64,000 nt of DNA, taken from contig NZ_JAIFXZ010000007.1 in NCBI RefSeq assembly GCF_021033825.1, forward strand, positions 21,756 to 85,755. Direction: 5' to 3'. This DNA comes from Dietzia aurantiaca (lineage in GTDB: Bacteria; Actinomycetota; Actinomycetes; Mycobacteriales; Mycobacteriaceae). The position numbers were made by a program, and so were the translations under genes. How positions within the stretch are numbered: the stretch's first letter is position 1; each line of letters begins with the position of its first letter. Positions 914-30,012 of the stretch are shown piece by piece. The notes under the pieces were generated by a model. That model had not been told where the DNA came from. It saw only the letters and a list, made by a program, of their open reading frames with translations, and ran no database searches.

Positions 914-2677
914 GTGACCAAGACGGTCGTTTTCCTCCATGGCGTCGGTGACGGCGATCCTCACAAGAACTGGCTGGCTGGTCTGAATCGTGGATTTCCC
1001 GCGGCCGGCTCGCCTCAGATCGACTCGTCACAGGTCATCAGCCCCGACTCCTCCCTGATCCTCGGCATGGCTGGCGGCAAAGCCAAGCATCCCCAGGTGA
1101 CGTACAACGTCAAGGACGACCGCGCGGATCGGCGGGCGTTCGTTCGGCGCCAGGCACGCATCGAAAGGCTACTGGAGCAGTCAGAGCTGGCGACCGGGTT
1201 CGGACTACGGCGAGTTCCGGATGCTGTGGTCACGCCACTCCAAAAGATCGGCATCCAAGCCGGGTCACTACCCCAGGTGCGGAACTACATGACGGACGAA
1301 AGACTCCGCGCCGTTGTTCTATCGACGATCCTCAAGGCACTACCGGATTCCGGTGACATCGTTTTGATCGGCCACAGCCTCGGAAGCATCATTGCCATCG
1401 ACCTCTTGGACCACCTCCCGGAGGACCTGCACGTCTCACGATTCATCACCATCGGCAGCCCTGGGGCAGCGCGGATCCTGCACGAGAAGCATGAGCGCAT
1501 CCTCAAGCGTTTTCCGTATGCCCGGGTGGATGACTGGAGCAACTTCTTCGTTCCGCACGATCCCGTCACCGCGGGTCGCGGAATCGCATCGATCTTCCCG
1601 GGCGCACAGGATTTTCGCATCCAGGTGCCCGTTACCAAGAGCAATCAGCTCGCTCACAATGCCGCGCAGTATCTCGAGCACCCGGCAGTCGGAATGCTTG
1701 TCGCGGACGCCTTGTCGCCTACAGAAGACGTTTTGGCTACGGGAACAGAGGTTGCGATTCGTCTTGACGAGACGAGCTTCGACGCCCTTTTCACGCTTGC
1801 CTACGCAACGCGGGTCTCCACCGAAATTTCGAAGAAGGAAGTCGCGACTCGTTACGCCGACACGCTCAAGGTCCTCGGCGATGAATTCGTCGACGGCGTG
1901 CGGCAACGGCTCCCCGAAGGATCCGCTCTTCCCGTCGAGGTAGAGGCGCTCTCCCACGGCCAGCGTCCACGCGTCCCTCGACGCCTCGAACTCGACGACG
2001 CAGTTCGACTGGTGGTGACGATGGCCTTCGCCAACGTGATCCAGCCTTACGAGATCTCTGTAGGTGACGCGCAAGTCGAGGCAATCCCCGAGTTCTTCGC
2101 CGAAATGGGTTTCTCCACCGGAGTCGGACGCGCGGTGCGGAAGGCAATCGTGGACGTGCAAAAGGTCTTGTCCGAGAGTGGCGGCTTCCCCACCGGACGT
2201 CTTGCGCTCGCCGCTGCAGGGCTCGCGCTCATCGCGGCTGGGCCGATCGGGATAGCCACCATGGGGACTGCGGCAGGAGCCGCCGCCATCACGAGCGGAC
2301 TCGCAGCGTTCGGCCCGGGCGGTATGGCCGGCGGTTTGGCCCTGCTCAGCGGCCTCGCATCCACCGGAGCGATGGTCACCACGGCTGCTGCCACGCTAAA
2401 GACGGGAGAGTCTTCTGGGGGCAGCGACCCCGCGAGTCTCGCAATTCGGGTGGCATCGTCGCACGCGCTGATGAGAGTCGGCGAGCAACCGGACGCGAGC
2501 CTGTGGTCATCGCTGACGGTCGCGGAGAGTGTGGTGGCTGGTCACATCAATAAGCTCGCGGAGTACAGCGACCCGAAGGCGCCCCAGCTCACGCAGCTAA
2601 TGCAGACCCGGGACATAATTAATCGCCTCATGACATTCGCGCATGACAATGGTCTAGGACGGACTGCCCTCGCCTAG
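914..2677 (+). CDS. Alpha/beta hydrolase with hydrophobic Gly/Ala-rich helices (possible membrane-acting effector)
   Basis: 587 residues from a GTG start. The N-terminal ~270 residues are an alpha/beta hydrolase: oxyanion-hole segment FLHGVGDGD (7-15), nucleophile elbow GHSLG with Ser155, and plausible acid and base partners Asp216 (FVPHDPVTAG) and His248 (LAHNAAQYL). After a charged helical middle, residues ~430-500 are a long Gly/Ala-rich hydrophobic stretch that looks able to enter a membrane. The gene lies 176 bp upstream of the SNF2 helicase gene on the same strand, so it may have its own promoter while belonging to the same island. A lipase or esterase next to a defence operon would fit a cell-killing effector, but that is inference; substrate and partner are unknown. 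Confidence 0.8.
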   Translation: MTKTVVFLHGVGDGDPHKNWLAGLNRGFPAAGSPQIDSSQVISPDSSLILGMAGGKAKHPQVTYNVKDDRADRRAFVRRQARIERLLEQSELATGFGLRRVPDAVVTPLQKIGIQAGSLPQVRNYMTDERLRAVVLSTILKALPDSGDIVLIGHSLGSIIAIDLLDHLPEDLHVSRFITIGSPGAARILHEKHERILKRFPYARVDDWSNFFVPHDPVTAGRGIASIFPGAQDFRIQVPVTKSNQLAHNAAQYLEHPAVGMLVADALSPTEDVLATGTEVAIRLDETSFDALFTLAYATRVSTEISKKEVATRYADTLKVLGDEFVDGVRQRLPEGSALPVEVEALSHGQRPRVPRRLELDDAVRLVVTMAFANVIQPYEISVGDAQVEAIPEFFAEMGFSTGVGRAVRKAIVDVQKVLSESGGFPTGRLALAAAGLALIAAGPIGIATMGTAAGAAAITSGLAAFGPGGMAGGLALLSGLASTGAMVTTAAATLKTGESSGGSDPASLAIRVASSHALMRVGEQPDASLWSSLTVAESVVAGHINKLAEYSDPKAPQLTQLMQTRDIINRLMTFAHDNGLGRTALA

Positions 2678-2853
2678 AGCGCACCGATAACACGTAGCCC
2701 CGCACCCGGCGAACGTGACTCGTTCGGTAACCCGTCACGCGTCCGGAGGCCTCGCCTTTCTGACAACTGTCCAGATTCTCGTGCGGAGCTTTGTGAGCGC
2801 CGCTAACCTCGACAATTCGACGACTGAGCGATCAACAAGAAGGACATCGCCCT

Positions 2854-5799
2854 GTGAGCAGTACCACCACCATCCAGCCGACTGATGCAAGTCAAGTCCC
2901 GTTCGCTCCGGGCGTCACGGTGGAGGTCCGTGACGAGGAATGGCTCGTCACCGCGGTGGAACGGGCGGCGAGCTCGCCCTCGACCGGGGGCGACGCATAC
3001 CTGCTCAAGGTCCGGGGGGTGAGTCCGTACGTCCGCGACACCACGGCCACGTTCTATACGGACCTGGACGAGGTGAAGCCGCTGGACCCGAGCGAGTCCA
3101 CGGTCGTGGCGGATCCCTCCCCCGGCTATCGCCGCTCACGCCTGTGGCTGGAGTCGACGCTGCGCCGTACGCCCGTACCACTGTACGACGAGTCGCTGGT
3201 GGTCTCCACGCAGATGCTGGCAGACCATCTCGAATACCAGCTCAGCGCGGTGCGCAAGGCGTTGTCCAACGAAATGTTGCGGCCTCGCCTACTCATCGCC
3301 GACGCGGTGGGACTGGGTAAGACGCTGGAGATCGGGATGATCCTGGCTGAGCTCATCCGCCGCGGCCGCGGCGAGCGCATTCTGGTGGTCACTCCTCGGC
3401 ACGTATTGGAGCAGATGCAGCAGGAGCTGTGGACCCGCTTCGCGATCCCGCTGGTCCGCTTGGACTCGATGGGCATCCAGAAGGTGCGCCGTACATTGCC
3501 CGCCACGCGTAACCCGTTCACGTTCTTCCCCCGCGTGATCGTCTCGATCGACACGCTCAAGTCCGCCAAGTACCGCGCCCAGTTGGAACGCGTGCGTTGG
3601 GACGCCGTGGTGATCGACGAGGTGCACAACGCAACCAACTCGGCCACTCAGAACAACGAGCTCGCCCGCCTCCTCGCCCCCACCACGGAGGCGCTCATCC
3701 TGGCCTCGGCCACGCCGCACAACGGGCGTGCGGAGAGCTTCGCAGAGCTGATTCGCCTACTGGATCCCACGGCGGTCGGCCCGGACGGCGCCATCAACCC
3801 CCGCGATCTGGCGCCGCTCATCATCCGCCGTCACCGGCACAGCCCGGAGGTGGACGACGAGGTGGGTTCGCAGTGGGCCGTGCGCGCCGAGCCGAACAAC
3901 ATCCTCGTACCGGCGTCGAAGCAAGAGACAGCACTGGCGGGCGAGCTCCGCGACACGTGGACCCGCCCGGGCGTCCAGCCGCCGTCGGGCGACAACCGTC
4001 TTTTCCCATGGACCCTGGCCAAGGCGTACCTCTCCTCCCCCGCAGCGTTGATCGAGTCGGTCACCAACCGTCGCAAGAACGCCTCGGGCCCCGCCGAGGT
4101 GGCCGCCCTGGACCGGCTACATGAGTTGGCCGAGCAGGTGACGCCCGCCGTCAGCGCCAAGTACCAGAGCCTGCTGGCGTACCTGCGCGAGATCGGGATC
4201 TCCCCGCGCAGCGAGCAGCGGGTGGTGATCTTCTCCGAGCGCGTGCGGACCCTGCACTGGCTGGCGGAGAACCTGGCCAAAGACCTCAAGCTCAAGTCGG
4301 ACGCGGTGGCGGTGATGCACGGCGGGCTGTCCGACCAGGAGCAGATGGACCTGGTGGACGGCTTCAAACGCGCATCGAGCCCGCTGCGGGTGCTGGTGAC
4401 GGGCGACGTTGCCTCGGAAGGCGTCAACCTGCACACCCAGTGCCACCATCTGGTGCACTACGACATCCCGTGGTCGCTCATCCGCATCCAGCAGCGCAAC
4501 GGCCGCGTGGACCGCTACGGGCAGCGCACACCCCCGGTCATCACCACGCTCCTGCTGGATCCTCCGGAGGACGCCGCACCGGGCGACCTGCAGGTGCTCA
4601 CCCGGCTGATGGAGCGTGAGTATGAGGCCCATACGCAGTTGGGTGACGTCGCCTCCCTGATGGGCGAGCACTCGGAGGCCCGCGAGGAGGACACCATCCG
4701 TCAGGTGCTCGCGGGGGGCAAGAAGTTTGATGACGTCGTGCGCCGTCCGGAGGACGTCCTGGCCACCGTGGGTGAGCTTGGTGACGACGACATCGACGAC
4801 GGTGACGATATCGACGCATTCCTCGAGCAGATCGCCATGGGCGGCTCTGAGGAGGTCGTCGACTCCGGCGCGGCGGCGCAGGCCCGTCGTTTCAGTGTCT
4901 ACGAATCTGAGGTGGACTATCTCGAGGACGCTCTGACCGAGGCTTTCCACGGGGAGCCCCAGTTCCCCAAAGGGCGGGGCGGAGTCGCGTGGAGGCGAAA
5001 CGCCAACCAGACTGCCCAGCTGGAGCCGACGGATGACCTGGCCCGCCGGCTGGACCTGCTGCCCGAGGACTACGTGCGGGCGCGCCGGGTCCGAGAGGAA
5101 CTCATCCTCGCGACTTCCACCAACCGGGGCAAACTGTCTCTCGAGGAGGCCCGCGAGGGCGCCTCGGAGACAACCTGGCCGATCGCCCACTTCCTCGGCC
5201 CGCTGCACCCGGTGTCGGACTGGGCTGCGGACCGGGCGCTAGCCTCGATGGCCCGGCAGGAGGTCCCGGCGGTGCGCGGCCGGGTCGATTCACCGACTGT
5301 GCTGGTGATGGGCACGCTCATGAACCGCCGCGGGCAGGTCGTCACCCGCGCCTTCTCGACGGTCGAATTCCCGATGCCGGACCTGGCCACCGCCGAGCCC
5401 GTGGACGACCCGTACACCTGGCTCGAGGGTATTGGCCTGAGCGCCGGGGCCACCAACCCGGGCCCTGTGGCGGGCGCCTACGAGCTTTCCCACCTCATCC
5501 CGCGGGCGGTCAAGGCAACGTCAGGCAGTTTGGAAGCAGTGTTCGCCCAGGCCAGCGCCGAGGCCGATCGCAGAGTCACCGCATGGCGCGAACGTTCCCA
5601 CGAGTGGGAACACCAGACAGAGGAACTGATCAGCAGCGCCCGCCTCACGAAACTCTCCCGGCGCGTGAGAGAGGAGGCAGAGCTCGCCGAGCAGCTCCGG
5701 CCGGAGCAGCGGCTGGTGAGGCCCCTCCTCGTCGTCGTCCCCACCGATCACCCCATCGCGGAGACCTCCGCGCCTACCACCTCGCAGGAGAACAGCTGA
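2854..5799 (+). CDS. SNF2-family helicase, DrmD-like
   Basis: 981 residues, GTG start with AGAAGGA about 10 bp upstream. After an N-terminal beta-rich module (about 1-85) comes a two-lobed SF2/SNF2 motor: motif I DAVGLGKT (150-157), motif II DEVH (255-258), motif III SATPHNGR, and motif VI QRNGRVDRYGQ (about 547-557) with arginine fingers. A long acidic and helical C-terminal region follows. SNF2 motors translocate on duplex DNA. In class 1 DISARM the gene drmD encodes this type of protein next to an adenine methylase, as here. It is the first gene of a tight operon: only 1 bp separates its stop from the methylase start. Orthology to DrmD is inferred from architecture and context. Confidence 0.88.
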   Translation: MSSTTTIQPTDASQVPFAPGVTVEVRDEEWLVTAVERAASSPSTGGDAYLLKVRGVSPYVRDTTATFYTDLDEVKPLDPSESTVVADPSPGYRRSRLWLESTLRRTPVPLYDESLVVSTQMLADHLEYQLSAVRKALSNEMLRPRLLIADAVGLGKTLEIGMILAELIRRGRGERILVVTPRHVLEQMQQELWTRFAIPLVRLDSMGIQKVRRTLPATRNPFTFFPRVIVSIDTLKSAKYRAQLERVRWDAVVIDEVHNATNSATQNNELARLLAPTTEALILASATPHNGRAESFAELIRLLDPTAVGPDGAINPRDLAPLIIRRHRHSPEVDDEVGSQWAVRAEPNNILVPASKQETALAGELRDTWTRPGVQPPSGDNRLFPWTLAKAYLSSPAALIESVTNRRKNASGPAEVAALDRLHELAEQVTPAVSAKYQSLLAYLREIGISPRSEQRVVIFSERVRTLHWLAENLAKDLKLKSDAVAVMHGGLSDQEQMDLVDGFKRASSPLRVLVTGDVASEGVNLHTQCHHLVHYDIPWSLIRIQQRNGRVDRYGQRTPPVITTLLLDPPEDAAPGDLQVLTRLMEREYEAHTQLGDVASLMGEHSEAREEDTIRQVLAGGKKFDDVVRRPEDVLATVGELGDDDIDDGDDIDAFLEQIAMGGSEEVVDSGAAAQARRFSVYESEVDYLEDALTEAFHGEPQFPKGRGGVAWRRNANQTAQLEPTDDLARRLDLLPEDYVRARRVREELILATSTNRGKLSLEEAREGASETTWPIAHFLGPLHPVSDWAADRALASMARQEVPAVRGRVDSPTVLVMGTLMNRRGQVVTRAFSTVEFPMPDLATAEPVDDPYTWLEGIGLSAGATNPGPVAGAYELSHLIPRAVKATSGSLEAVFAQASAEADRRVTAWRERSHEWEHQTEELISSARLTKLSRRVREEAELAEQLRPEQRLVRPLLVVVPTDHPIAETSAPTTSQENS

Positions 5800-5800
5800 C

Positions 5801-8800
5801 ATGGCCGCCGACAGCGCGATCGTCAACGTCGACGAGTGGATCAGCGAGCACTACCTCACCACCGAGGAGACCAAGCAGTCCTACCTTGCCCGGGTGCGGG
5901 CACTGGTCAAGAGCTGGAAGCAGGACGCCGGCGAGGGTGCCATCTCGCCGTTGAAGAGGCTGACCACGGCGCGGCAGGCGCTGTTGGTGTCCCTGTCGCA
6001 GCTCTCCGGTAACAGCGATGGTGAACAGGCCCGCCCGGCGCCGGAGGAGGAACGCGCGGAGCTGAGGAAGGCCCTGGGATACGGCGCTCCCGGCGATCAC
6101 TCGTGGACGCGTGGGGAGTCCACGTGGCACGCCCAGGCCTGGGCCAGAGACGGTGTGGTGATGCTGGAGGCCTCCCCTGTGGACACCGTGGAGGACCTTC
6201 GCTCAGCAGTGGTGCTCGGAGAGGTGTTCGCGGACGGCAAGCCCGCCGACGCAACGGTCGGCAAGGTGGTCGGTGAGCTGTTCGTGTCCGACGCTCCGCC
6301 GGCGTTCGTCGCGGTGTTGGCTGGCCGGTGGTTCCTGCTGGCCGAGCGAGAGTCGTGGCCGTTGGGCCGGTTCCTCGCGGTGGACCTGCTGTTGGCGCTC
6401 GAACGTGGCGACACCCGCTCGGGTGGGGAGATTGAGCGGGTGGTGGCGGCAGTCTGCCGCGAGTCCCTCGAGCGCCGGGCCGACGGCACGGTGTGGTGGA
6501 CCGAGACGCTGGAGGATTCGCGTCAGCACTCGGTCAAGGTCTCCGAGTCCCTTCGCGGAGCGGTGCGTGAGTCAATCGAGATTATCGCCAACGACGTGCT
6601 GGAACGTCGTCGGGTGCGGGGGCTGTCGGTGGGCCAGGTCGACGGCCAGGATCTTGCCCGGCAGTCGCTGCGGTATCTGTACCGAATCTTGTTCCTATTG
6701 TTCGCCGAGGCGTCACCGGAGCTGCGGATCCTGCCGGTCGGATCGACCGAGTACGACGACGGCTACGGGCTTACCCGACTCCGGGATCAGATCCTCACCC
6801 CGCCGGCCACCCCTCGCGAGGAGCAGGGAACCTATCTCTACGATTCGTTGGCGTTGTTGTTCCGTCTGGTCGACGGCGGCCATCACCCAGCGGACGAGCC
6901 GGGCGTGGCTCCGGGCCTGGAGTTCAATGAGCTTTCGGCGGATCTGTTCTCGCCAGCGGCAACCTCTCTGATCGACGAGGTACAGCTGTCCAACATGGCG
7001 CTGTACCGGGTCCTGGGCAACCTCCTTCTCACGCTGGAGCAGCCGGGTAGGGACCGTGGGTTCATCTCCTACGCAACGCTGGGTGTCACCGAGCTCGGTC
7101 AGGTATACGAAGGCTTGATGTCCTACACCGGGTTCATCGCCTCCGAGGACCTGTGGGAGGTCGCCCGCGGTGGCGACGACTCCAAGGGCTCGTGGGTGGT
7201 GGGCCACGCTGACTCGTTGGAAGTCTCCGCCGGCGATCGAGTGATGCGTCGCAACCCCGTCACAGGTGAGGACGAGTGGGTGCGGCACCCGCGCGGATCG
7301 TTCGTGTTCCGCCAGTCCTCGCGCGACCGTGAGCGGTCCGCCTCGTTCTACACGCCGCAGGTGCTGAGCGAGTTCGTGGTGGGCCAAGCCATCGAGGAGC
7401 TGGATGCCACGGGGCGGATCGACACCGCCGAGGCCATCTTGACGCTCTCGATCTGTGAGCCTGCGATGGGTTCGGGGGCGTTCGCCGTGGAGGCGGTGCG
7501 ACAGCTCGCCGAGCTGTACCTGGAGCGTCGTCAGCAGGAGCTGGGCCAGGAGATCGACCCCGAATCGCGTACGGCGGAGCTGCAGAAGGTCAAGGCCTAC
7601 CTCGCCCTGCACAACGTGTACGGGGTGGACCTCAACGCCACGGCCGTAGAGCTGGCCGAGATCGCCCTGTGGCTGGACACCATGACGCCCGGGCTCCAGG
7701 CCCCGTGGTTTGGCCTGCGCCTGCGTCGCGGCAATTCGCTGATCGGTGCCCGAAGGGCCACCTATTCCCCCACGCAGGTCGAGAAGAAGCAATGGCTCGG
7801 CGCCGAGCCGCAGGATGCGCCAGTGGCGACGCTGGCTGCTGCAGTCGATGACGAGACGGGGTTCGATCCGTCAGTGCGCGGTCGCATCCATCACTTCCTG
7901 CTCCCCGCCGCTGAGTGGGGGTCGGCGGCCGACGCCAAGGAGCTCAAAAACTACGTGGGGCAGGCGCAGGCCGACCTCAAGCAGTGGCGCAAGTCGGTCA
8001 CTTCCAAGCCCAGCAAGACGCAGGTACGCCGACTGACGGACCTGGCCGAGCGCACGGAGAGGCTGTGGCAGATCGCCCTGGTGCGATTGCGTATTGCCGA
8101 GGATCAGGCGCGGCGGCGCATTGATGTCTACGGCGCGGATGTGGCCACTCCCGCCAACCCGGTGCCGCGGGCGGTGATCGAGGAGTCGTTTGCCGATCCG
8201 GGGAGCGCGTTCCAGCGGCTGCGACGGGCGATGGACGCCTGGTGTGCCCTGTGGTTCTGGCCCCTCACCGGGGCCAGGTTGGTTGTCGACGACGAGGCCG
8301 TCACTCCCCCGACCCTGGACCAGTGGATCAACGGGCTCGAGGCGCTGCTGGGTAAGGCGTATTCCGATGCGCCCAAGGCCCGCGGCCGCTATGGCGCGAG
8401 CGAGGGACAATACCGGCTCGGCGACGACCTGACGTGGGAAGAGATCAACAGCGCCGAGGACATCGACCGCGCACTCGCCCAGGAGGCCCGCATAGAGACC
8501 GTGCTCCGCGAGCATCCGTGGATGGTCGTCTGCGAACGCGTGGCCGGAAGCAGCGGCTTCTTCCACTGGGAGCTGGACTTCTCGCCGGTGTTTGCGCGCG
8601 GTGGGTTTGACCTACAGGTGGGTAACCCGCCGTGGGTGCGGCCACGCACGGACGAGGACGCGCTGTGGGGCGAGTCGGATCCGTGGTGGATCCTGGTGCA
8701 CAAGCCGACGCAGGCCGCCAAGGCGAAGCGACGCGAACTCACCGTCACCCGACCGGGTGCCCTGGACATTTTTGCCGACGGCATCGCCGAGACGGTGGTG

Positions 8801-16899: not shown

Positions 16900-16900
16900 G

Positions 16901-19273: not shown

Positions 19274-22200
19274 CAGGCGCAAGCCACACATCTGCGACCA
19301 CGTGGAGGCTCGCCTTCCCGTTCTGGGATCAGGTCGCAGAGCAGGTGCCCGTCTCGGGTGAGACGCTTATCAGCGACACCTCGGCGGAGGACCGCGTCGA
19401 GACAGTTCTTGAACTCGCGTCCGCGTTCCGCGTGACCGGCGATCCCGCACTGGGTGAGCTCTACCCCCTGATTCCCGCCCAGTTCGGTCTCGTTCTCGGC
19501 GCCGGGCAAGACCCGGTGACGTTTGCGGCGCTGGCCATCCGTTCGTCCGCAGACGTGACCACGCCTATGTCGCGCGCAGATGGACGTCGGCTCCACCGGA
19601 CTCTGGCGCAGGTCAATGCTGCCGCGGGCGCGGTGCCCGACGCCTCGTGGCCCCGGGACCCAGTCCTGCGCGCAGTGAGCAGTGCGGTGTTCGCGCTCGC
19701 GCCCGAGCGGTTCTACGCCCTCATCGACATTCGTTTGAAGGGCGGCAACGTCGAGACGGCGAACAACTATGTCAGCCGCGAATTCCAGGACGATTTCGAC
19801 ACCATCCTCGAGGCTGCAGTCGCCGAAGCGCGGCACGGCGCCGACTCGCCGGAGATGCAGCACTGGCTCGACACGCTCATCTCGCGCGACGGCGAAGATG
19901 CGCTGTCCACGCATCCGCAGCTGCGCAGGCCCCTGGGACTTCTCGACGTCACCCTGGCGCAGGCCGCTACGCTGCTCATGCCCGAGGTCGGCGATCTCTC
20001 CGGAGACAACGCAACGAGCACGGTCAGTCTTCCGCACTCGGCGGACACCACTCTTATCGACCAGGACGCCACCGTCCGGGAAGCCCCGGTCGACAGCGCG
20101 GACTCGGACGCGGTTCCCCTGTCCGACACGTCGGCGGTGGACACCGAATCACACGCCGACGAGGCGAGCCCGAGCGCTCAGACAGAGACAAACAGTTCAG
20201 AAGTCGGCGGCATCAAAGCCGACGAACTCCGTCCAGGAATCGGGCTGACTTCAGACGATGACATCGACGCGTGGGAGAACGCTCTTCGCCGACGGCTGAC
20301 CGAAGCCACCCTGGCTATCGATACGGATCTGTCTGGCCTGGAACTCGACGTGCTCTTTGACGTGTACGGAAACCGGTACCGTCTGTCCCGCGGACGGGGC
20401 ACCACGGTCAAGCAGATCGCCCACCACTTCCCCGCCGCCACGCTCATGTCGATGGTGGGCATGGCTTCGGTCGGGCTGGAAGACAATGCCTACTGGGACC
20501 AGTTCTGGGACCGGCTGCGGACCGAGCGAAACCACACCGACGAGAACGCACTCCGACAGCTCATCATCCCGCTCCTGCGACAGTTCGACCTCGATCCGAT
20601 CGCGGGCTTGTCCACGTCACTGCACGTGCAGCGGCTCGCGGTACACGCTGGCATCCCGGCGTCCAGCGCGAGTCGGCTCGTCGAGGTGCTCACCATCTAC
20701 ATCGGGTCCGTCTCCTCCCGCGACACCCAACCCTTCAGTGAATGGGTGCGACAGCCGGGTCAGGAGCACGTCTTTGATCAACTGGACTATCCCACCCGCG
20801 ACTTCGTCCGATACAGCGGTGAACGTGGGACCGAGCTGCTGGACGAGATGGCCCGCATCGTGGCCGAGATCGCAGAAAACCCTGCCGTCGATGCCACCGC
20901 TCTCACCGCTGCACAGACGTTCCTCCCGCAACTACTCATCGAACCTCTCAGGCACGCGCTACACAGCGCAGACGTCTCCGACTCGGTTCGCGCGCAACGC
21001 CGACGCGCACGCCTGACGCCAACCCTCCACCTGGAGGCCGACGACTCCATGGTGGTGCGCATCCCGGCCCCATCGAGCCACACCTCGGCACCGTGGACCA
21101 TCACCCTGGACACCCACGTGGTGCGAGTCGCCGCCGAGAAATTCAGCAGCGACCAATCCGTAGAGGTGCCCATCGAGCACCCCACCAGGCGAGTAGTCGT
21201 GACCCACCCGTCCCTGGCGCATCCGATCGAGCTACGTCTCTACGACACTGGTAAACCACTCATCCTGTTCACCGCGCAGGGCGAGCACATCCCGGACACC
21301 GCGCGACTGCCCAGATCAGAGGTGCTCGCGGTGATGCCTGGGGACCTCACTGTCCTGGGCGAGCATCCTTTCGCCCCACGGGTCATCGCGAACTACGGCA
21401 CCCCGCTGGGCTGGGACGGATGGGAGATCAACCAGTGGGATCTCACCGAGACCACATCTCTGCGAACCCGGACCGCCCAGGATGAGGTGCGGGACCATCC
21501 GGTGGGAAGCCAAGCTCTGCCCAGCTTGTTCGACGAGCCCGACGACCCGCTTCCCGTTCTCCCCGGCGTCTTCAGCGAAAAGCTGCCCGTTCTTCACTCC
21601 CGTCCGTGGCTCGACCTGCCGGCCCTCGGACCCGACTCCGCAGCCACCTGGACCATCCAATACCGGCGTGCCGGCGCCCGGGAATGGACTATTCAGGGCG
21701 ACTACGCGGCACCGGAGCAGGGAGCGGCCCCGTTGTTCGATGACGAGCCCGAGCAGCTCGGCCGCTTCGACGTGCGTGTCACAGGACCTTTCGGAGCGAG
21801 GTTCGAGACCAGCATCGTTGTGGCTGAAGGTCTGCAGATCGAGTACGACGACTCGTTGCGCATTCCGGAGGACGACGGTCTGACCGAAGTCACCGCCGAG
21901 GTCTGGTCCGACGACCCCGCGCTCGTCATCCTGGACCCTCAGCTGCACTTCGGGCCCCAGGTTTCTAAACGGCCACTCCGCATCCGCCGGGGCGCTGCCT
22001 CGGAGATGGTCACCGTCCGCCCCCCGCGGATGGAATTCCGGATGACGCCGGTCGGCGGCGTTCCGTCGTGGAGCGACCGGCAGATCGGTCGACGTCCCGA
22101 TGACTTCACCGGGGCGGTTCTCGCCGTCCGAGGGGTGCCCGAGGACATCCCCATCGTGGCGGAAATCCATGACCACACCGGTTCGGTCCGAGCGAAGGAA

Positions 22201-23664
22201 CCACTGGTCTCACGCTCGCGCGGCGGCGTGCTCACCCTGACCGCAGACCGTCTCGCGGGTGCCGCACGCGAGACGCAGTCAGGACTGGTCATCCTTCTCC
22301 TCGCCTACCCCGACCGCACCTACACGGCTCCCATCATCCGGTTCAACACCGTCGGCGCCGACGTCAGGATCGCTGTCGACGGGGACGAGATTCACGTCCG
22401 CGGCCGTCACCTCCACTCGGACACCACCGTCCACATCTGGAAGGTCGCCCGCCCATGGAGCCCGGTGCTCACCGTCCCGCTCGTCCGAGGCCGGGCCACG
22501 CTGCCCGCTTCGGCGTTGGAGGCCGGAGACCTCCGAATCGCCCCCGTGGTGCAGGACGACTGGGACCCGGTTCCCCCATCGCCCCTTCCGACCCGGGACA
22601 GTGTCCGCATCAGCCGCCCGGGCACCTTCACCGACCCCGCGACCGCCGTTCTGTCCCAGTTCCTCCTCGGTCACACCGGCCCGGACGGAATCGATCCCAC
22701 GCTCCCCGAAGTATGGTCCGCACTCGCTCTCCTCTCCCGAGGCCTTGAAGACGGAGACGACGAGCGGTTCGACCAATTGTCCCGTCTGATGGGGAACGCG
22801 CCCCGCCGCGCTGCGCTCTCCCTGGCTGCGGCCCCACTGGAGACCGCCGACAAACTAGCTCTCTTCATCCGCTCCGGGCTGGTCTTCCACTCGTTCCGAC
22901 CCTACGGTCGAGACGATCTCCTTTCCCGCGCACAGAACACCGCACTCTCCTCCGAGCCCTGGCTGGACGTGCTCATCACCATCGCCAATATCCCCGCAGC
23001 CAGCGTGGAAGATCGCATAGCGTTGCGGGATCGACTACGTGGCGTTGGCGGGCATGCTCTCGTCGACATTCTCAAAACCGGAAGCGACCCACTAGCGATC
23101 TCGGCGTCTCTCGACGCAGCGTTAGTTCTCCGCAGCGACCACCCTGACGCGGTATCTGCCTTCCTCGATGCAAAGCGACTCGTCCCCGGTGGGCTCACCG
23201 ACGCTGCCGCCCGATACGAGGCCTACCGGGCTCTCTTCCGGAACAAGGACTCTGAAACGGAGAAACTGCGTGAGTTCTACGGGGTTCTCCTCGAAGGGCG
23301 CTTCCAGCCCCTCAATGAAGTCAGGCGCTTTGGAGTCCTGTGGCGGGCGGTAACGGCACGGGCCAGGAAGCTGGGCAACGTTACCAACCAGCACCCGTGG
23401 GCTAACGCCCCCTTCGCCAGCTTGACCTTCTGCCTCTACGCCCGTCTGGCTGCGGTGGATGAGATCCGGTTGGATCCGCCCCAAGGGCTCGATTCAGCGT
23501 GGGCATGGTTTGCCGCCCGCGAGCCCGAGCAGACCATGATCGACCTACTCGTGGCCGAGGCGCTGGTCACCCGTATGACCCTGCCCGACCGCAAGCGCAA
23601 CCCCTACTCCGCATTCGACTCGATGACCGATGAGGACATCGTGGACCTGATCGTCACCATCTAG
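19270..23664 (+). CDS. 1464-residue protein of unknown function in helicase array
   Basis: The start is a GTG overlapping the upstream stop (GTGA). I recognise no enzyme motif, P-loop or zinc site. Residues 1-260 are mostly helical. Residues ~260-320 are an acidic, Ser/Thr-rich linker. Residues ~320-570 are again helical and hold a segment around LAVHAGIP (~456-463) followed by a WVR...F...Y...G pattern. Residues ~590-1130 are beta-rich with many Trp, Tyr and Asp, resembling repeated Ig-like or beta-sandwich modules, and the C-terminus (~1140-1464) is helical. This layout suggests a scaffold that brings the helicases together or senses substrate. It is locked into the operon by overlaps at its start and a 7-bp gap after its stop. 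Confidence 0.7.
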   Translation: MTGASHTSATTWRLAFPFWDQVAEQVPVSGETLISDTSAEDRVETVLELASAFRVTGDPALGELYPLIPAQFGLVLGAGQDPVTFAALAIRSSADVTTPMSRADGRRLHRTLAQVNAAAGAVPDASWPRDPVLRAVSSAVFALAPERFYALIDIRLKGGNVETANNYVSREFQDDFDTILEAAVAEARHGADSPEMQHWLDTLISRDGEDALSTHPQLRRPLGLLDVTLAQAATLLMPEVGDLSGDNATSTVSLPHSADTTLIDQDATVREAPVDSADSDAVPLSDTSAVDTESHADEASPSAQTETNSSEVGGIKADELRPGIGLTSDDDIDAWENALRRRLTEATLAIDTDLSGLELDVLFDVYGNRYRLSRGRGTTVKQIAHHFPAATLMSMVGMASVGLEDNAYWDQFWDRLRTERNHTDENALRQLIIPLLRQFDLDPIAGLSTSLHVQRLAVHAGIPASSASRLVEVLTIYIGSVSSRDTQPFSEWVRQPGQEHVFDQLDYPTRDFVRYSGERGTELLDEMARIVAEIAENPAVDATALTAAQTFLPQLLIEPLRHALHSADVSDSVRAQRRRARLTPTLHLEADDSMVVRIPAPSSHTSAPWTITLDTHVVRVAAEKFSSDQSVEVPIEHPTRRVVVTHPSLAHPIELRLYDTGKPLILFTAQGEHIPDTARLPRSEVLAVMPGDLTVLGEHPFAPRVIANYGTPLGWDGWEINQWDLTETTSLRTRTAQDEVRDHPVGSQALPSLFDEPDDPLPVLPGVFSEKLPVLHSRPWLDLPALGPDSAATWTIQYRRAGAREWTIQGDYAAPEQGAAPLFDDEPEQLGRFDVRVTGPFGARFETSIVVAEGLQIEYDDSLRIPEDDGLTEVTAEVWSDDPALVILDPQLHFGPQVSKRPLRIRRGAASEMVTVRPPRMEFRMTPVGGVPSWSDRQIGRRPDDFTGAVLAVRGVPEDIPIVAEIHDHTGSVRAKEPLVSRSRGGVLTLTADRLAGAARETQSGLVILLLAYPDRTYTAPIIRFNTVGADVRIAVDGDEIHVRGRHLHSDTTVHIWKVARPWSPVLTVPLVRGRATLPASALEAGDLRIAPVVQDDWDPVPPSPLPTRDSVRISRPGTFTDPATAVLSQFLLGHTGPDGIDPTLPEVWSALALLSRGLEDGDDERFDQLSRLMGNAPRRAALSLAAAPLETADKLALFIRSGLVFHSFRPYGRDDLLSRAQNTALSSEPWLDVLITIANIPAASVEDRIALRDRLRGVGGHALVDILKTGSDPLAISASLDAALVLRSDHPDAVSAFLDAKRLVPGGLTDAAARYEAYRALFRNKDSETEKLREFYGVLLEGRFQPLNEVRRFGVLWRAVTARARKLGNVTNQHPWANAPFASLTFCLYARLAAVDEIRLDPPQGLDSAWAWFAAREPEQTMIDLLVAEALVTRMTLPDRKRNPYSAFDSMTDEDIVDLIVTI

Positions 23665-23671
23665 GAGCACC

Positions 23672-26600
23672 GTGACTGACATCCTCGATCCGCTGATCAC
23701 CGCCCGAAACATCGAGACGACGTACAAGCGGTACCTCACCACAATCCTCCACCCGAAGGAGGCGAGTCTTCGCAACGAGTTCGTAGGTGAGGTGGGTAGA
23801 TCTCGCGATCTCACCAAGGGTCCACTGCTCGAGACAACGCCGCCCTACGCCGCGGGCCAGTCGCTGAACGATCTCATTGACGAGGGAGTGCTGGAGCCCT
23901 CATTCGCGCGGCTCTCCAGCCCCGCCCTCCCCTTGGAGAGGCCGCTGTACGCGCACCAGGAGAACGCGATCCGCAAGGTGGTGGCCGGCCGCAACGTAGT
24001 GGTGACAACCGGCACCGGCTCGGGCAAGACGGAGAGCTTCCTGCTGCCGATCTTCAACCACCTCATGGCCGAACGCGCGGCGGGCACCTTGGGCCCAGGT
24101 GTCCGAGCACTGCTGCTATACCCGATGAACGCTCTCGCCAACGACCAACTCAAGCGGCTCCGAACACTCCTGGCCGACGTCCCCGAGATCACCTTCGGGC
24201 GCTACACCGGGGAGACCAAGCACACCACAAAAGACGCCCAGCGGCACTTCAAGTCCCTCCATCCCGGTGAGCCACTGCTGCCCAACGAGAAGCTCAGCCG
24301 CGAGGAGATGCAGGCGGACCCGCCCCATATCCTCCTCACCAACTACGCCATGCTCGAATACCTCCTCTTGCGTCCTCGGGACATCGAGCTCTTCGCATCC
24401 CACGGTTCCCAGACCTGGCGTTTCGTCGCGCTCGATGAGGCCCACGTGTACGACGGAGCCCAAGCGGCCGAGGTCGGGATGCTGCTGCGCCGCCTCAAGG
24501 ACCGGGTAGCCCCCTACGAGCGTCTGCAGTACGTCGCCACCTCGGCGTCTCTGGATGGTGAGCCCTCCGAGGTCACCTCCTTCGCCTCGGAGCTGTTCAA
24601 CGCAGACTTCGAGTACTCTTCAGACCCCGCCCGGCAGGACGTGGTCCACGCGGTGAAGATCACCTCCCCGGACGCAGCCACCTGGCAGCTCACCCCGGAG
24701 CAGCTTCTCGAAATCGTCGCGGGTCCCACGGACGATTGGGGCGTGCAGGAGGCAGATGCAGGCCCCGATTCCGCGCGCTTGGTACAGCTCTCCGGAATGG
24801 CCTCCGCCGGCGAGGCCTTGGACCACGAGCACCACATCATCGCCTTGCGCGCCGCGCTCGCCGACGGCCCTGTAGACATTCGCGTCCTCGCCGAGCAGAT
24901 CTGGCCAGGACGGGAGGACGCCGACCGCCTGCTCGAAACCCTCGTTCGTCTGGGCGGCCGCGTATCAGCCGGCAATGGCCACCCGGTGCTGTCCGCGCGC
25001 TATCACTTTTTCGTCCGCGCCACTGAAGGCGCCTTCGCCTGCCTGTCCGAAACCGGACCCCACGTGGCCCTGGCCCGCCACGAGGAATGCCCCACCTGCG
25101 ATGCGGCGATGTTCGAGTTCGCTACCTGCACCTCGTGCGGAACCGTGCATCTCGCCGGCCAGGTCGAGGACGACCGTTTGATCCCCGTCACCGGACGCTC
25201 CGACAAGGCGAAGTGGTATGCACTGTTGGATACTGCTGATGTCGTGGTGGACGAGGACGACACGGTTCTGGCCTCGGACGACGACGTCGTCGTCACCACC
25301 CCCACTTGGCTGTGCACAGGCTGCGGCGACCTCTCGGAGAGCCCCGTCACCACCTGCCATTCCGGGTGCGGCAAGGGCACCATCCGGCCCATCTTCGCGC
25401 TCCACACCAGCAAGGCGGGCCTGTCGACCTGCATCCACTGTGGAGCGCGAAAGAACCACCTCATCCGCCGACTCGACCTGGGCAGCGACGCTCCCGCCGC
25501 GGTCGTCACCACGTCCCTCTACCAGCAGCTTCCCATCGCCAAGGATGAGTCGCGCGATCTGGTCGGGCAGGGACGCAAGCTCCTCATGTTCAGCGACTCG
25601 CGGCAGGCCGCCGCGTACGCCGCGCCCTACCTCAACGGAACCTACTCCCGTCTGGTCCAGCGTCGCCTACTCACCCAGACCATCGACTCTCCGTACTACC
25701 GAAACGAGCCGGCCACCATCGATGACCTGGTGGCCGACGCCGTCCCCGTGGGCCGAAAGGCCCACCTCTTCGAAGCGACAGACTCCAAGCGCCACACCGA
25801 CCGGGCCGTAGCCACATGGCTCATGTCCGATCTCATCGGCACAGACACCCGCCAATCCCTGGAAGGCCTGGGCTTGCTCCACGTGAGCATGCGTCTGCCG
25901 GCGGACGCCACGCTTCCTCCGCCCCTCGTCAAAGCACTCGATACCGATGGCGCGCGAGCCGTCCTGCAGCAGCTGGCGGCGATGGTCCGACGCCAGGGTG
26001 CAGTAACCATGCCCGACGGTGTTGACGCCACCGACGAACTGTTCGCCCCGCGCAATGTTGTGATCTCTATGCGCTCGGATGGTTCCGACCGTCGGCGCAA
26101 GCAACTGTCCTGGGCTCCCACCCGCGGCACAAACAAGCGGCTCAACTACCTCGAACGGGTCCTGGAGAAGGTCGGCAAGCGTGACCAGGCCCGCGAGTAT
26201 CTCGACAGGCTGTGGATGGTTCTCGGAGCGGGCGGAAGCCGGGGAAACGGACTCGGTTGGCTCAAAGACAACACGCCTACCGTGGGGACAAGCCAGCTCG
26301 ACCACCGGATGATCGAGCTTCGGCCCGGTATCACGGCACAGTGGTGGCGGTGCTCGGTCTGCCGGTCCCGTACCGCCCACAACGCGCTCGACGTGTGCCC
26401 AACGCTGAACTGCGACGGGGCACTGGAACTGGCCCCGATCCCGTCACTCCTCGAGGAAGAGAACCACTACCGGCATCTGTACCGGTCCATGGCGCTCGCC
26501 CCCATGTCCGCCAGCGAACACACCGCGCAATGGACTGCAGAAGAGGCGCTGGAGATTCAGAACCGCTTCATCCGGGGCGACATCAACGTGCTGTCCTGCT

Positions 26601-28366
26601 CCACCACCTTCGAGCTGGGTGTGGACGTGGGTGACCTCCAGGCAGTGGTCATGCGCAATATGCCTCCGCGAACCGCCAACTACGTTCAGCGTGCCGGGCG
26701 GGCAGGCCGACGTTCGGACTCTGCAGCATTCGTCACCACCTACGCCCAGCGTCGACCGCGGGATCTCGCCCGCTTCCAAGACCCCACCGGCATGATCAGC
26801 GGCGTCATGCGCGTTCCCTGGGTGCCGATTGACAACGAGCGGATCGCCAGGCGACATATCCACTCGATCGTTGTGGCCGAGTTCCTACGGAGCCAGTACG
26901 AGGATTTCGGTCGCGAGTTCCCCCGTGTGGCCGACCTTTTGTCCGCGGACAACCCAGCGGATGAAGCATGGCGGAAGATCGAACCATTCCTCACGCCAGT
27001 TCCGTCACACATCGCCGATGCGGTGGCGCGGGTCGTGCCCGAGGAGCTCCACGATGAGCTCGATGTGGCCGAACACGGCTGGGTCCGCCACCTGATCGAG
27101 CGGTTCGAGTCCGTAGCCGAAGAACTCCGTCTGGAAAGGGCACAACTCACCGAGCTGCAGGACAACGCTGCGGCCGAGAAGAACTACAAGTTCGCCAGCT
27201 TATTGGAGCGGACCCTGCGGACAGTCGAGGGCCGCCAGATGCTCGCCGTACTGGCCCAGAAGAACATCCTCCCCAAGTACGGATTCCCGGTCGACACAGT
27301 TGGCTTGCGCACCAACCATTCACCTGACCCCGCCGGTCAGAAGCTCGAACTCGACCGTGATCTTGCGCTGGCCATCCTCGACTACGCACCTGGAAACCAA
27401 GTTGTAGCCGCCGGGAAACTGTGGACGTCGCGGGCAGTGGCAAAGAAGCCTGGCAAGGCGTTCGTTCGACACGAGTACCGCGTCTGCACCGACTGCGGCG
27501 CGTTCCAAACTGCGCTCTCTCTAGAAAACGCCGAACCAACCTGCCCCGTATGTGAAACGGAATTCAGCAGCAGATCAATCAAACGCTTCATCATCCCCGA
27601 GTGGGGTTTTGTCGCTGAACCGCAGCCCGAGCCCGTAGGGTCGGCCCCGCCATCTCGGGGGACTGTCGGTTCCTCCTTCGTTGAGTACCCTGGGGACTCG
27701 ATCTCCCAGGTAGAACTTGTTGGCGGCACCACAACCACAACCGCGACCTCGGGTGTCCGTGCTCAGATGGTGGTTCTCTCCGAGGGGATGGGGGCCGGCT
27801 ACCGAATCTGTAGTAACTGCGGATGGGCCAAGCCGCACTCGGGAGACCGATCCGCCGCCCACACGAACCCTCTCACCGGAGCGGACTGTCGAGGCAGCTT
27901 TGAGCTTGTCGCGCTGGGCCACCGCTATCAGACCGACACCGCGGAAATCGTTCCTCGAGGGCTCGTCGATGCGAACCCGAACGCCATGCTCTCCCTGATG
28001 TATGCCCTGCTTGAGGGGGCATCAGAAGGGCTGGAGATCTCTCGGGACGACATCGATGCCACGCTTTCGTGGTCAAAACGGACACGGTCGATCGTTCTCT
28101 ACGACACCGTCCCGGCCGGCGCCGGCGCAGCCCGGAAGATCACCGAGAACATCACCACGGTGCTCGACGAAGCACACCGCAGGGTCGATAACTGCGACTG
28201 TGGTCTCGAGACGAGCTGCTTCGGCTGCCTCCGCAACGCGTTCAACGACCGACACCACGAAGTGCTAAAGCGCGAGGACGCATTGCGACTGCTCGATCAG
28301 ATGCGCTCATACAAGTCGGACATAAACTTCGAACCCCTCGCCACAACAGCTTCCCCGCGACCGTGA
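23672..28366 (+). CDS. Second DEAH-box/DUF1998 helicase (MrfA/DrmA-DrmB-like)
   Basis: 1564 residues, GTG start with an AGGAG site overlapping the previous stop. Helicase motifs: TGTGSGKT (113-120), LYPMNAL (motif Ia), DEAH (255-258), SAS at ~291 in place of SAT, CSTTFELGVDVG (~975) and QRAGRAGRR (~1006-1014). Cys pairs near 473-490 (CPTC...CTSCG), 549 and 591 are likely zinc sites. The DUF1998/MZB end carries YDTVPAGAG (~1477) and CDCGLETSCFGC (~1509-1520). MrfA-type helicases move 3' to 5' on single-stranded DNA; in DISARM the helicase and DUF1998 parts are split between DrmA and DrmB. Unlike the first DUF1998 helicase in this operon, it stops soon after the zinc module and has no nuclease-like tail. 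Confidence 0.88.
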   Translation: MTDILDPLITARNIETTYKRYLTTILHPKEASLRNEFVGEVGRSRDLTKGPLLETTPPYAAGQSLNDLIDEGVLEPSFARLSSPALPLERPLYAHQENAIRKVVAGRNVVVTTGTGSGKTESFLLPIFNHLMAERAAGTLGPGVRALLLYPMNALANDQLKRLRTLLADVPEITFGRYTGETKHTTKDAQRHFKSLHPGEPLLPNEKLSREEMQADPPHILLTNYAMLEYLLLRPRDIELFASHGSQTWRFVALDEAHVYDGAQAAEVGMLLRRLKDRVAPYERLQYVATSASLDGEPSEVTSFASELFNADFEYSSDPARQDVVHAVKITSPDAATWQLTPEQLLEIVAGPTDDWGVQEADAGPDSARLVQLSGMASAGEALDHEHHIIALRAALADGPVDIRVLAEQIWPGREDADRLLETLVRLGGRVSAGNGHPVLSARYHFFVRATEGAFACLSETGPHVALARHEECPTCDAAMFEFATCTSCGTVHLAGQVEDDRLIPVTGRSDKAKWYALLDTADVVVDEDDTVLASDDDVVVTTPTWLCTGCGDLSESPVTTCHSGCGKGTIRPIFALHTSKAGLSTCIHCGARKNHLIRRLDLGSDAPAAVVTTSLYQQLPIAKDESRDLVGQGRKLLMFSDSRQAAAYAAPYLNGTYSRLVQRRLLTQTIDSPYYRNEPATIDDLVADAVPVGRKAHLFEATDSKRHTDRAVATWLMSDLIGTDTRQSLEGLGLLHVSMRLPADATLPPPLVKALDTDGARAVLQQLAAMVRRQGAVTMPDGVDATDELFAPRNVVISMRSDGSDRRRKQLSWAPTRGTNKRLNYLERVLEKVGKRDQAREYLDRLWMVLGAGGSRGNGLGWLKDNTPTVGTSQLDHRMIELRPGITAQWWRCSVCRSRTAHNALDVCPTLNCDGALELAPIPSLLEEENHYRHLYRSMALAPMSASEHTAQWTAEEALEIQNRFIRGDINVLSCSTTFELGVDVGDLQAVVMRNMPPRTANYVQRAGRAGRRSDSAAFVTTYAQRRPRDLARFQDPTGMISGVMRVPWVPIDNERIARRHIHSIVVAEFLRSQYEDFGREFPRVADLLSADNPADEAWRKIEPFLTPVPSHIADAVARVVPEELHDELDVAEHGWVRHLIERFESVAEELRLERAQLTELQDNAAAEKNYKFASLLERTLRTVEGRQMLAVLAQKNILPKYGFPVDTVGLRTNHSPDPAGQKLELDRDLALAILDYAPGNQVVAAGKLWTSRAVAKKPGKAFVRHEYRVCTDCGAFQTALSLENAEPTCPVCETEFSSRSIKRFIIPEWGFVAEPQPEPVGSAPPSRGTVGSSFVEYPGDSISQVELVGGTTTTTATSGVRAQMVVLSEGMGAGYRICSNCGWAKPHSGDRSAAHTNPLTGADCRGSFELVALGHRYQTDTAEIVPRGLVDANPNAMLSLMYALLEGASEGLEISRDDIDATLSWSKRTRSIVLYDTVPAGAGAARKITENITTVLDEAHRRVDNCDCGLETSCFGCLRNAFNDRHHEVLKREDALRLLDQMRSYKSDINFEPLATTASPRP

Positions 28367-28500
28367 CACACAGTGCAAGCGAGGCTTTCTCAAGCAAACT
28401 CTTCGAGCACCCCCAAAAACGGCAACGTGCACGGTAAAGTAGAGCTCTCCGACGGTCACCAAAATGACCTATCAACCCCGTACTGAAACTGAGGGAATAA

Positions 28501-29964
28501 GTGAAAGAACTTATCCAAATAGACTCATTCGGAGCAATCGACGCAGACGCCGACGAATTGCTTCGAGACTGCTTCGAGGACCATCCTGCATACCTACAGA
28601 TAAGAGCACAGCAGCGATTCCTAGTACTGGGCCGAAAGGGCGCTGGCAAAACTGCCATTTACAAGCGTCTCGTTACCGAGCAGTCCTTTGACCAGTTTGC
28701 ATTCGGGTACTCTTTTGACGATTACCCATGGGCACATCACAAGCTGCAAGAAGAGACGGGAGTCCCTGTCGAAAGGAGATACATACACAGTTGGAAGTAT
28801 CTAATCTTAATCGCCTTAGCAAAAATACTCCTCAATCAAGATCAAAGTCAACCTTGGAGCGACGACGCTCATGAAGCACTCAGTCGACTCGAAGCATTTA
28901 TGGTCGATTCATATGGGTCGCGCAACCCAGACATGACACAATTATTCTCCCCCGAGCGCATACTTCAACTAAAGGGGCGCCTTAACCTTGGTGCGATCGC
29001 GGGCGACCTTAACAGCATTCGTGTCCGCGATCTCCCTATCCATATCCAAGATGTTAACCGAATGCTCGCGTCCACAGTAATGAGCACGCTCAACCCATCA
29101 ATTTCTTATTTCATCTGCTTTGACCAATTGGATCTGGGGTTTGACCCAGAAGATTCATCTTATTCAGCGAGGCTATCCGGCCTAATAATGGCAGCCCGGG
29201 ATCTCTTCATCCAAGCCCGCGATGAAAACAAGAACTTTTGCCCCGCAATTTTTCTCCGAGACGACATTTTTGAGGACTTGAAATTTGAAGACAAAAATAA
29301 GATAGCCGAGAACTACTCAACCCGAGTAATTTGGTCTGACACGGGCAGTAGCCCAACCCTCAAAGAACTCATGGAAAAGCGGTTCACTATCGCTCTTTCA
29401 GAGACTGAACACAGCGATCACGTTCATTGGAATGACGTCTTCGACGAAACGAAGGAGATGCCCAGCAGGCAGAACAAATATAAGCATATCTGTGACCGAA
29501 CATTTCTCCGACCAAGGGACATGATCAAGTTCTGCAACACAGTTCTAACCGCACACAAGGCCGGCCCACCCGAGAGCCAGTTCAATAACTCAAGCATCCA
29601 TGAAGCGCGCGAAGAGTACTCCGATTACCTACTTCGAGAGCTTGACGACGAAGTCGCAAAACACTCCCCCAACTTTAGTGTTTATCTCGAAGTACTGAAG
29701 TCAATAGGCACTGAGCAGTTTTCGTTGGAACAGTTCGAGTCAAATCTCGAGCTACGCACTCTGGCGGTTGACGAATCCACGAGCTCAGCGATGGCGACAC
29801 TGTTCGAGTTTTCAGTCGTAAGCTATCTCAAACCGGGTGGGCGCGGCGGTGGATCAGCGTGGATCTGGCGGTACAAGGACCCGAGGGCACGTTTCGATCC
29901 ATCTTCTAGCTCGTTCCGCGTACATCCGGGCCTTAAAGAGGCCCTGGACCTTGCCCGCGGATAG
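28501..29964 (+). CDS. P-loop ATPase (resembles Sll1717 family), AT-rich
   Basis: 487 residues, GTG start with GAGGG 5 bp upstream. Walker A is GRKGAGKT (44-51); a Walker B-like strand is FICFDQLD (~200). The rest is helical with a C-terminal part that could be a winged helix. The layout fits the P-loop ATPases annotated as the Sll1717 family, often found beside defence genes; this is a resemblance, not a search result. The gene is strikingly AT-rich compared with all neighbours (23 G/C of 60 bases in 28801-28860) and uses rare TTA and ATA codons, so it was probably gained separately. It lies 134 bp after the helicase operon on the same strand and 48 bp before the tRNA gene, likely with its own promoter. 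Confidence 0.72.
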   Translation: MKELIQIDSFGAIDADADELLRDCFEDHPAYLQIRAQQRFLVLGRKGAGKTAIYKRLVTEQSFDQFAFGYSFDDYPWAHHKLQEETGVPVERRYIHSWKYLILIALAKILLNQDQSQPWSDDAHEALSRLEAFMVDSYGSRNPDMTQLFSPERILQLKGRLNLGAIAGDLNSIRVRDLPIHIQDVNRMLASTVMSTLNPSISYFICFDQLDLGFDPEDSSYSARLSGLIMAARDLFIQARDENKNFCPAIFLRDDIFEDLKFEDKNKIAENYSTRVIWSDTGSSPTLKELMEKRFTIALSETEHSDHVHWNDVFDETKEMPSRQNKYKHICDRTFLRPRDMIKFCNTVLTAHKAGPPESQFNNSSIHEAREEYSDYLLRELDDEVAKHSPNFSVYLEVLKSIGTEQFSLEQFESNLELRTLAVDESTSSAMATLFEFSVVSYLKPGGRGGGSAWIWRYKDPRARFDPSSSSFRVHPGLKEALDLARG

Positions 29965-30012
29965 GCACTCTCTCCGTGTGTTCACGCCTCCGTAGATCAA
30001 GTGAAGCCTCGG

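Follow-up and report, generated by a model that had tools for sequence, protein, structure and literature searches.

What kind of system is encoded by six closely packed genes of the actinobacterium Dietzia aurantiaca that specify helicases, a DNA methylase and a very large protein of no evident family? The genes lie in a stretch of 64,000 nucleotides (hereafter the window; positions 21756–85755 of a 168-kb contig, in a genome of 3.77 Mb), and a reading made from the letters alone (the sequence-only reading) took them for a DISARM-related array with an unusual set of parts. By gene content, the locus is neither DISARM nor one new system: two systems had been read as one, DrmB and DrmC are missing and the DrmD score is below cut-off. 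It is probably a composite anti-phage array, in which an ARMADA type II system (genes 1–4) is joined in one operon to a DruH-DruE pair of the nuclease-less Druantia III-B type (genes 5 and 6), with an activity predicted from homologues.

ARMADA type II is described as four proteins in strict order, namely ArmA (BrxHII/RapA-like), ArmB (PglX-like), ArmC (YprA-like, with a Vsr-type tail) and ArmD (a GajB-like UvrD helicase with a RelE-like head) (PMC12458937, bioRxiv preprint 2025). In E. coli its action is reported to be direct and non-abortive, and each of the four genes to be essential (PMC12458937). The Zorya II-Druantia III-ARMADA II island of E. coli holds ARMADA II beside Druantia III, with synergy against a subset of phages (PMC12458937). 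A review names ARMADA and Druantia systems (PMC12904381).

The six genes share the + strand between 2854 and 28366, with junctions that are gaps or overlaps of 1–7 bp. ArmA and ArmB stand 1 bp apart, ArmB and ArmC overlap by 4 bp, and ArmC is followed by ArmD after 1 bp if the latter starts at the ATG at 16901 (the listed TTG start at 16871 gives a 29-bp overlap). The ArmD-DruH junction is a 4-bp GTGA overlap, with the DruH start codon lying over the ArmD stop codon, and is seen in D. cinnamea too; DruE begins 7 bp after DruH. The sequence-only reading had described the six genes as locked together in this way, and the junctions came out the same when recomputed; the eight open reading frames (ORFs) on which it relied are all present with the coordinates and strand it gave. 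A synteny search for the six-gene order found the identical array in three further genomes, G011 (taken to be D. cinnamea NBRC 102147), G013 and G318, and chance assembly of the six genes is excluded because these share the same order. A sigma-70 promoter scan of 2600–2900 found none, although such a scan means little in this phylum.

By homology and gene order, genes 1–4 are ARMADA type II. BLASTP aligns them with ArmA-D of E. coli ATCC 8739 in conserved order, at 29–35% identity over most of each protein (300/861 identities for ArmA, 458/1400 for ArmB, 590/2026 for ArmC and 243/782 for ArmD, the last with its N-terminal region covered). The features of type II that were found are ArmA and ArmB as genes 1 and 2, an ArmC with fused DUF1998, and a UvrD-type ArmD as gene 4. 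Pfam recognises SNF2 and Helicase_C in ArmA (motifs DEVH and QRNGRVDR present), Eco57I and MmeI methylase matches in ArmB (EPAMGSG at residue 553, NPPW at 942), DEAD, Helicase_C and MZB in ArmC, and UvrD in ArmD (motifs GGAGTGKT and DEAQ). The earlier calls of an SNF2 protein, an Eco57I/MmeI-type methylase, two DUF1998 helicases and a UvrD-type helicase are borne out by Pfam, while the RelE head and nuclease tail named in the sequence-only reading found no above-threshold match there. The ArmC tail has a sub-threshold match to MTES_1575 and residues common to six aligned ArmC proteins, that of E. coli included; the ArmD head has no RelE match in Pfam and can be aligned to the corresponding end of E. 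coli ArmD. ArmC also groups with E. coli ArmC in a tree that holds two ArmC only, on long branches. ARMADA type II of E. coli NCTC 12900 and ATCC 8739 (PMC12458937) has the same four proteins, order and domain plan as far as tested, but stands 223 bp after DruH-DruE, whereas in the window ArmA-D come first and no gap intervenes. The sequence-only reading had wondered whether the array is a member of ARMADA; this holds for genes 1–4, which are colinear with E. coli ArmA-D, and fails for genes 5 and 6, which are of Druantia III type. Of its "two extra giant subunits", one is ArmD, which belongs to the ordinary set of ARMADA II, and the other is DruH.

A variant of class 1 DISARM would have a DrmD-like helicase and a DrmMI-like methylase in common with the window, and ArmA does match DrmD models (309.9 bits in PADLOC, 323 bits in NCBIfam) and ArmB DrmMI models. 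However, 323 bits lie below the NCBIfam cut-off of 610, and class 1 DISARM has a separate DrmB (DUF1998) and DrmC (PLD), neither of which is among the eight proteins of the window. Both YprA helicases of the window are fused to DUF1998, are of the Druantia/ARMADA branch and match DruE far better than DrmA. DISARM membership was rejected on the missing DrmB and DrmC and the low DrmD score, and with the colinear match to ARMADA II the locus can hardly be a DISARM variant. The twofold fusion of helicase and DUF1998 and the lack of a PLD nuclease were correctly noticed from the letters, but they are not unusual, since both are normal for ARMADA and nuclease-less Druantia III-B. It is very improbable that gene 2 is a type IIG restriction enzyme-methylase acting alone in restriction-modification, with the rest as passengers. 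The PADLOC model REase_MTase_IIG (PDLC03611) matches the full length of gene 2 (1866 bits), but its name is annotation only, and the ArmA-B-C-D order is kept from Dietzia to E. coli, where each gene is reported to be essential (PMC12458937).

Gene 6 is, by its domains and closest models, a DruE of the nuclease-less III-B-like kind, and so half of a Druantia III-type pair. It carries the Pfam domains DEAD, Helicase_C and MZB, its best PADLOC models are DruE1 (4.6e-186) and DruE3 (1.2e-175), and it is 26–27% identical to E. coli DruE, in two pieces. The protein ends 45 residues past its last Cys pair, after the MZB domain, and the two C-terminal PLD domains of E. coli DruE (III-A) are absent. 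In the Druantia III-like branch III-B the nuclease is most often absent (PMC12458937), and the mycobacterial type III pair of M. smegmatis (MSMEG_1253-1254) has a nuclease-less DruE as in the window (PMC13316683). In nuclease-less relatives, DruE as called mostly measures ~1540–1740 aa and the DruH before it mostly 1100–1250 aa. Druantia type III of E. coli ATCC 8739 shares with the window the DruH-DruE order and a DruE of YprA and DUF1998 parts, but its DruH has 1119 aa and its DruE 2104 aa, against 1464 and 1564 aa here, and among the eight window proteins scanned there is no Zorya protein. The same scan found none of the partner genes of Druantia types I and II beside DruE. K119, A292 and C1516 of the window DruE agree in letter and number with three of the six residues mutated in M. 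smegmatis DruE; this matching was by number with a fixed offset and is only suggestive, with no chance baseline (best row 5/6, window 3/6).

Gene 5, the "1464-residue unknown" of the sequence-only reading, is best interpreted as DruH, from a branch that escapes the PADLOC 2.0 models. When 44 DruE-linked members (alignment A4, window included) were compared as a profile with one of seven DruH of E. coli type, the two matched over 377 columns with a probability of 93.7, an E value of 1.9e-7 and a score of 77.0, while the 11 controls (two reversed, eight block-shuffled, and DruE against DruH) score at most 24.6. A4, built from DruE-linked loci only, took the place of the family alignment A1 in this decisive comparison because seven DruH-like proteins from loci without DruE sat in A1; before the switch, A1 against E. 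coli-type DruH gave a probability of 70 and an E value of 3.9e-5. Among 80 named loci, 77 have a gene-5 relative upstream of DruE (at a distance of 4.6 kb in two; 75 by a stricter rule; none in L126, L148 and L156). With a DruE alignment as bait, 556 relatives were confirmed; the 80 are the best of these in similarity to the window DruE and not a census. The AlphaFold2 model of the core (44 sequences, mean pLDDT 83.1, pTM 0.74) has a helical part, beta strands at about core residues 250–780 and a helical end, and published DruH has helical ends with Ig-like domains at 257–748 (PMC13192584). It is because of this profile match with clean controls, the place upstream of DruE and the helical-Ig-helical plan that we take gene 5 for DruH. 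PADLOC 2.0 recognised none (0/21) of the gene-5 family members, and DruH-DruE pairs are therefore probably under-counted. Gene-5 relatives occur in 21 of the 397 genomes of the order, its own genome included, and in three of 22 other Dietzia genomes, one of which (G012) lacks DruE.

Several results weigh against this identification. At the thresholds used, neither Pfam nor PADLOC nor NCBIfam places gene 5 in a family, BLAST gives no DruH match, A1 does not match the single E. coli DruH, and the homology of the core to DruH of E. coli Druantia type III is seen between profiles alone, over those 377 columns. Among the 50 matches listed in a fold search with the core model there was no DruH structure, and generic Ig/FN3 entries appeared instead; the solved DruH (PDB 9tud) was not among the matches listed, from a library that ends 2026-04-08 and may not hold it. 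Since Ig strings are common, gene 5 could on these grounds be an Ig-rich protein, unrelated to DruH, that took the place of DruH as the partner of DruE. This is improbable in view of the profile match and its clean controls, the similar core length, the same place before druE and the same overall plan, and we keep to DruH.

Some further observations concern the same family. A plasmid search with gene 5 and a first scan of genome contigs with gene 5 alone gave no match, and mapping the mutated residues of M. smegmatis DruH to the family by a fixed offset was uninformative. The window DruH has a weak IclR-HTH match at 444–475. DruH-like proteins without DruE within 1.5 kb were seen at 10 loci in 10 genomes (L060, L061, L014, L064 and L068–L072 are named), and in the five loci scanned the neighbours include smc, dnaG, threonine dehydratase together with a DNA polymerase III alpha gene, phosphoenolpyruvate (PEP) carboxylase or a sugar transporter. 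These proteins are perhaps domesticated DruH relatives, or perhaps a separate family.

All four ArmABCD-DruHE arrays (4/4) have about 240 extra residues at the N-terminus of DruH. A hidden Markov model (HMM) built from the four N-terminal domains has no other match at E 0.01 among the DruH/DruE loci examined and none in the downstream flanks of 19 other ARMADA loci; the mycobacterial DruH-DruE pairs examined lack the domain. The idea that it is a separate ARMADA protein was rejected on the 0/19 result (18 of these 19 loci showed ArmD, G287 being the exception). In the DruE tree the four arrays make up one clade (100, starred). The DruH proteins of G013 and G318 (L003, L057) have, by eye, a winged-helix-like stretch at ~270–320 after this domain, which is not evident in the window.

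Do ARMADA and Druantia III keep company beyond these arrays? Clear ARMADA genes adjoin DruH-DruE at 20 of the 80 named loci; the distance is no more than 1.3 kb in 19 and 2.2 kb in the other, and the gap is at most 248 bp in 18 of the 20, as the ORFs were called. The order of the window, ArmA-D followed by DruHE, is found in one linked locus (D. cinnamea); DruHE precede ArmA in six (Pseudonocardia, three Mycobacterium/Mycolicibacterium, Herbiconiux and Curtobacterium), the two sets are divergent in eight (Skermania, Tomitella, two Rhodococcus, Prescottella, Rhodococcoides, Pedococcus and Salinibacterium) and convergent in five (Nocardia). Most linked loci show a partial ARMADA because the flanks reach 10 kb at most; six loci with weak ArmA- or ArmD-like matches (28–37%) were not scored as linked. 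On the DruE tree, linkage changes 10 times, at least eight of these changes being forced by starred branches, and the four orientations take six changes among linked rows; the tree is a quick LG+G4 one with long-branch and letter-composition warnings, in which E. coli DruE is scored as "none" though it is ARMADA-linked. An ArmB-like gene is present in 11 of 19 DruE carriers against 43 of the 397 genomes of the order (Fisher p 2.7e-7; 1.5e-6 when the window genome is left out; relatedness being ignored), and some of the ArmB-like matches are weaker and may not belong to type II. The four orientations, and the linkage in 20 of the best 80 named relatives of one DruE branch, suggest that the partnership of ARMADA and Druantia III is not an accident of E. 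coli.

Other observations point the other way. No ARMADA is in view at 60 of the 80 loci (wide flanks were seen for 37 of the 60), no DruH was found in the downstream flanks of the 19 other ARMADA loci (0/19; downstream side only), and two convergent loci (L104, L171) have only an ArmD-like gene within the flank. In M. xanthum (L150, 6684–21380) the order is DruH-DruE-ArmA-ArmD as far as the contig end, with ArmB and ArmC missing. Defence genes cluster anyway, and the fused order and the DruH N-terminal domain probably arose once, since the four arrays are one DruE clade. Two independent systems may therefore have been stacked in a hotspot and co-transcribed while functionally uncoupled. The unlinked loci, the 0/19 result, the site at a tRNA-Leu hotspot and an E. 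coli synergy that holds for a subset of phages (PMC12458937) speak for such stacking, but the adjacency in four orientations with 18 of 20 gaps at or below 248 bp, the 4-bp ArmD-DruH overlap and the confinement of the N-terminal domain to the fused order speak against it, and we regard it as possible but doubtful. A composite array whose two systems work together is what the sequence comparisons suggest.

Other arrangements were met at related loci. The reduced or hybrid DruH-DruE-ArmA-ArmD combination of L150 is seen also at L067 and L087. Nocardia loci L102, L127 and L139 have two or three ArmD-like genes around ArmC, with L083 and L084 in the same group. In N. rosealba (G342), ArmA-ArmB lie ~45 kb from DruE on the same contig, and in Streptosporangium (L106) and Microbispora (L131) about 4.6 kb separate DruH from DruE.

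The coordinates of the array and its surroundings are collected in Table 1. The array's island ends at a tRNA-Leu gene that, from genome comparison, looks like an integration hotspot in Dietzia. The long match of the right flank begins at 30009–30012 in 16 of 22 other Dietzia genomes. When 5–20 kb stretches left of this tRNA in nine Dietzia genomes were compared with 52 kb of the contig, eight shared only the tRNA; in the ninth, G013, another copy of the array stands ~1 kb from this tRNA-Leu. There is no exact direct repeat of at least 13 bp between the tRNA-Leu region and the 52 kb leftward that could mark an att site; no integrase search was made, and not all ORFs of the island were scanned. 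Left of the array the contig carries an oligopeptide transporter and an AMP-binding enzyme. A hydrolase and an ATPase flank the operon just where the sequence-only reading had placed them. They were rejected as subunits, and are probably island cargo, because no homologues were found in the flanks seen (0.2 to ~8 kb) of the other three arrays. A homologue of the hydrolase lies ~7 kb from DruHE in Klenkia (L062). The Sll1717-family ATPase has weak similarity to the anti-phage protein model NF053860 and may be a separate defence gene.

Table 1. Features of the composite array and its surroundings, in window positions.
Feature	Position	Strand	Description
Alpha/beta-hydrolase-like protein	914..2677	+	Sub-threshold Pfam matches only
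ArmA	2854..5799	+	SNF2/RapA (BrxHII/DrmD-like) helicase, 981 aa
ArmB	5801..10432	+	PglX-like adenine DNA methyltransferase, 1543 aa
ArmC	10429..16899	+	Helicase of the YprA family, 2156 aa, with DUF1998/MZB and a Vsr-like tail at the C-terminus
ArmD	16901..19273	+	UvrD/GajB-like helicase, RelE-like region at the N-terminus; 790 aa when started at ATG 16901, with TTG 16871 as a further possible start
DruH-like protein	19270..23664	+	1464 aa, with array-specific N-terminal region
DruH N-terminal domain	19270..19989	+	~240 residues; HMM of four array members
DruH linker	19990..20274	+	~95 aa, poorly conserved; alignment with D. cinnamea
DruH core	20275..23661	+	Helical at first, then a string of Ig-like beta domains, then helical again (AlphaFold2 model)
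DruE-like YprA-family helicase	23672..28366	+	DUF1998/MZB, without nuclease tail, 1564 aa
Sll1717-family P-loop ATPase	28501..29964	+	NF047389, 328 bits (cut-off 75)
tRNA-Leu(taa)	30011..30086	-	ARAGORN; right edge of variable region holding the array

How might the two systems act? ArmB would mark host DNA as self by methylation; ArmA, ArmC and ArmD would translocate on and cut unmarked or phage-specific DNA through the Vsr-like tail of ArmC, giving a direct, non-abortive block. DruH of E. coli probably serves as a sensor and has a nuclease activity that depends on dimers; E. coli DruE engages 3'-tailed DNA (PMC13192584). In M. smegmatis, phage DNA is kept by DruH-DruE from circularising and replicating, and DruH is toxic when DruE is absent; a heading in that paper speaks of abortive infection, unlike ARMADA (PMC13316683). 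On whether DruH and DruE form a stable complex the two papers differ: one reports a pull-down with a homologue of DruE, the other no stable interaction (PMC13192584; PMC13316683). In the window, DruH may sense a phage structural protein or a DNA intermediate through its string of Ig-like domains and activate DruE, which would load on exposed single-stranded DNA and process it. Because the window DruE has no nuclease, the cutting would come from DruH itself or from ArmC. We hypothesise that the DruH N-terminal domain and linker probably tether DruH-DruE to an ARMADA protein. Taken further, the arrays of Dietzia and a relative may form a single six-subunit machine, in which the N-terminal domain docks the DruH sensor and DruE to ARMADA, whose nuclease executes what DruH senses; we put this forward as a tentative proposal.

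Part of this picture is already known, as the pairing of ARMADA II with Druantia III and its synergy in E. coli have been described (PMC12458937, a preprint). The E. coli island has the same two systems adjoining and is tRNA-associated, as in the window, but places DruH-DruE before ArmA-D with a 223-bp gap (the layout of ATCC 8739, where we located the genes) and adds Zorya, while the window has the reverse order with overlapping genes. A definition of the gene set found from sequence alone therefore exists in so far as ARMADA II plus Druantia III is described in E. coli, and differs in the opposite order, the gap and a distant DruH/DruE branch. The accessible portions of the ARMADA/Druantia III literature hold no description of the fused order, the DruH N-terminal domain or the actinobacterial orientations, although supplements of PMC12458937 could list such loci. 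Within those portions, what we did not find in print is the single operon in the order opposite to E. coli, the 4-bp overlap, the DruH N-terminal domain found in arrays only, and the 20/80 linkage in four orientations.

If the two systems do work together, the four orientations in which they pair across Actinomycetota would record the evolution of a partnership. The available text of PMC12458937 offers no physical explanation for the synergy of ARMADA II and Druantia III in E. coli, and a lineage that has both in one operon, with a domain exclusive to that arrangement, would give a direct handle on it.

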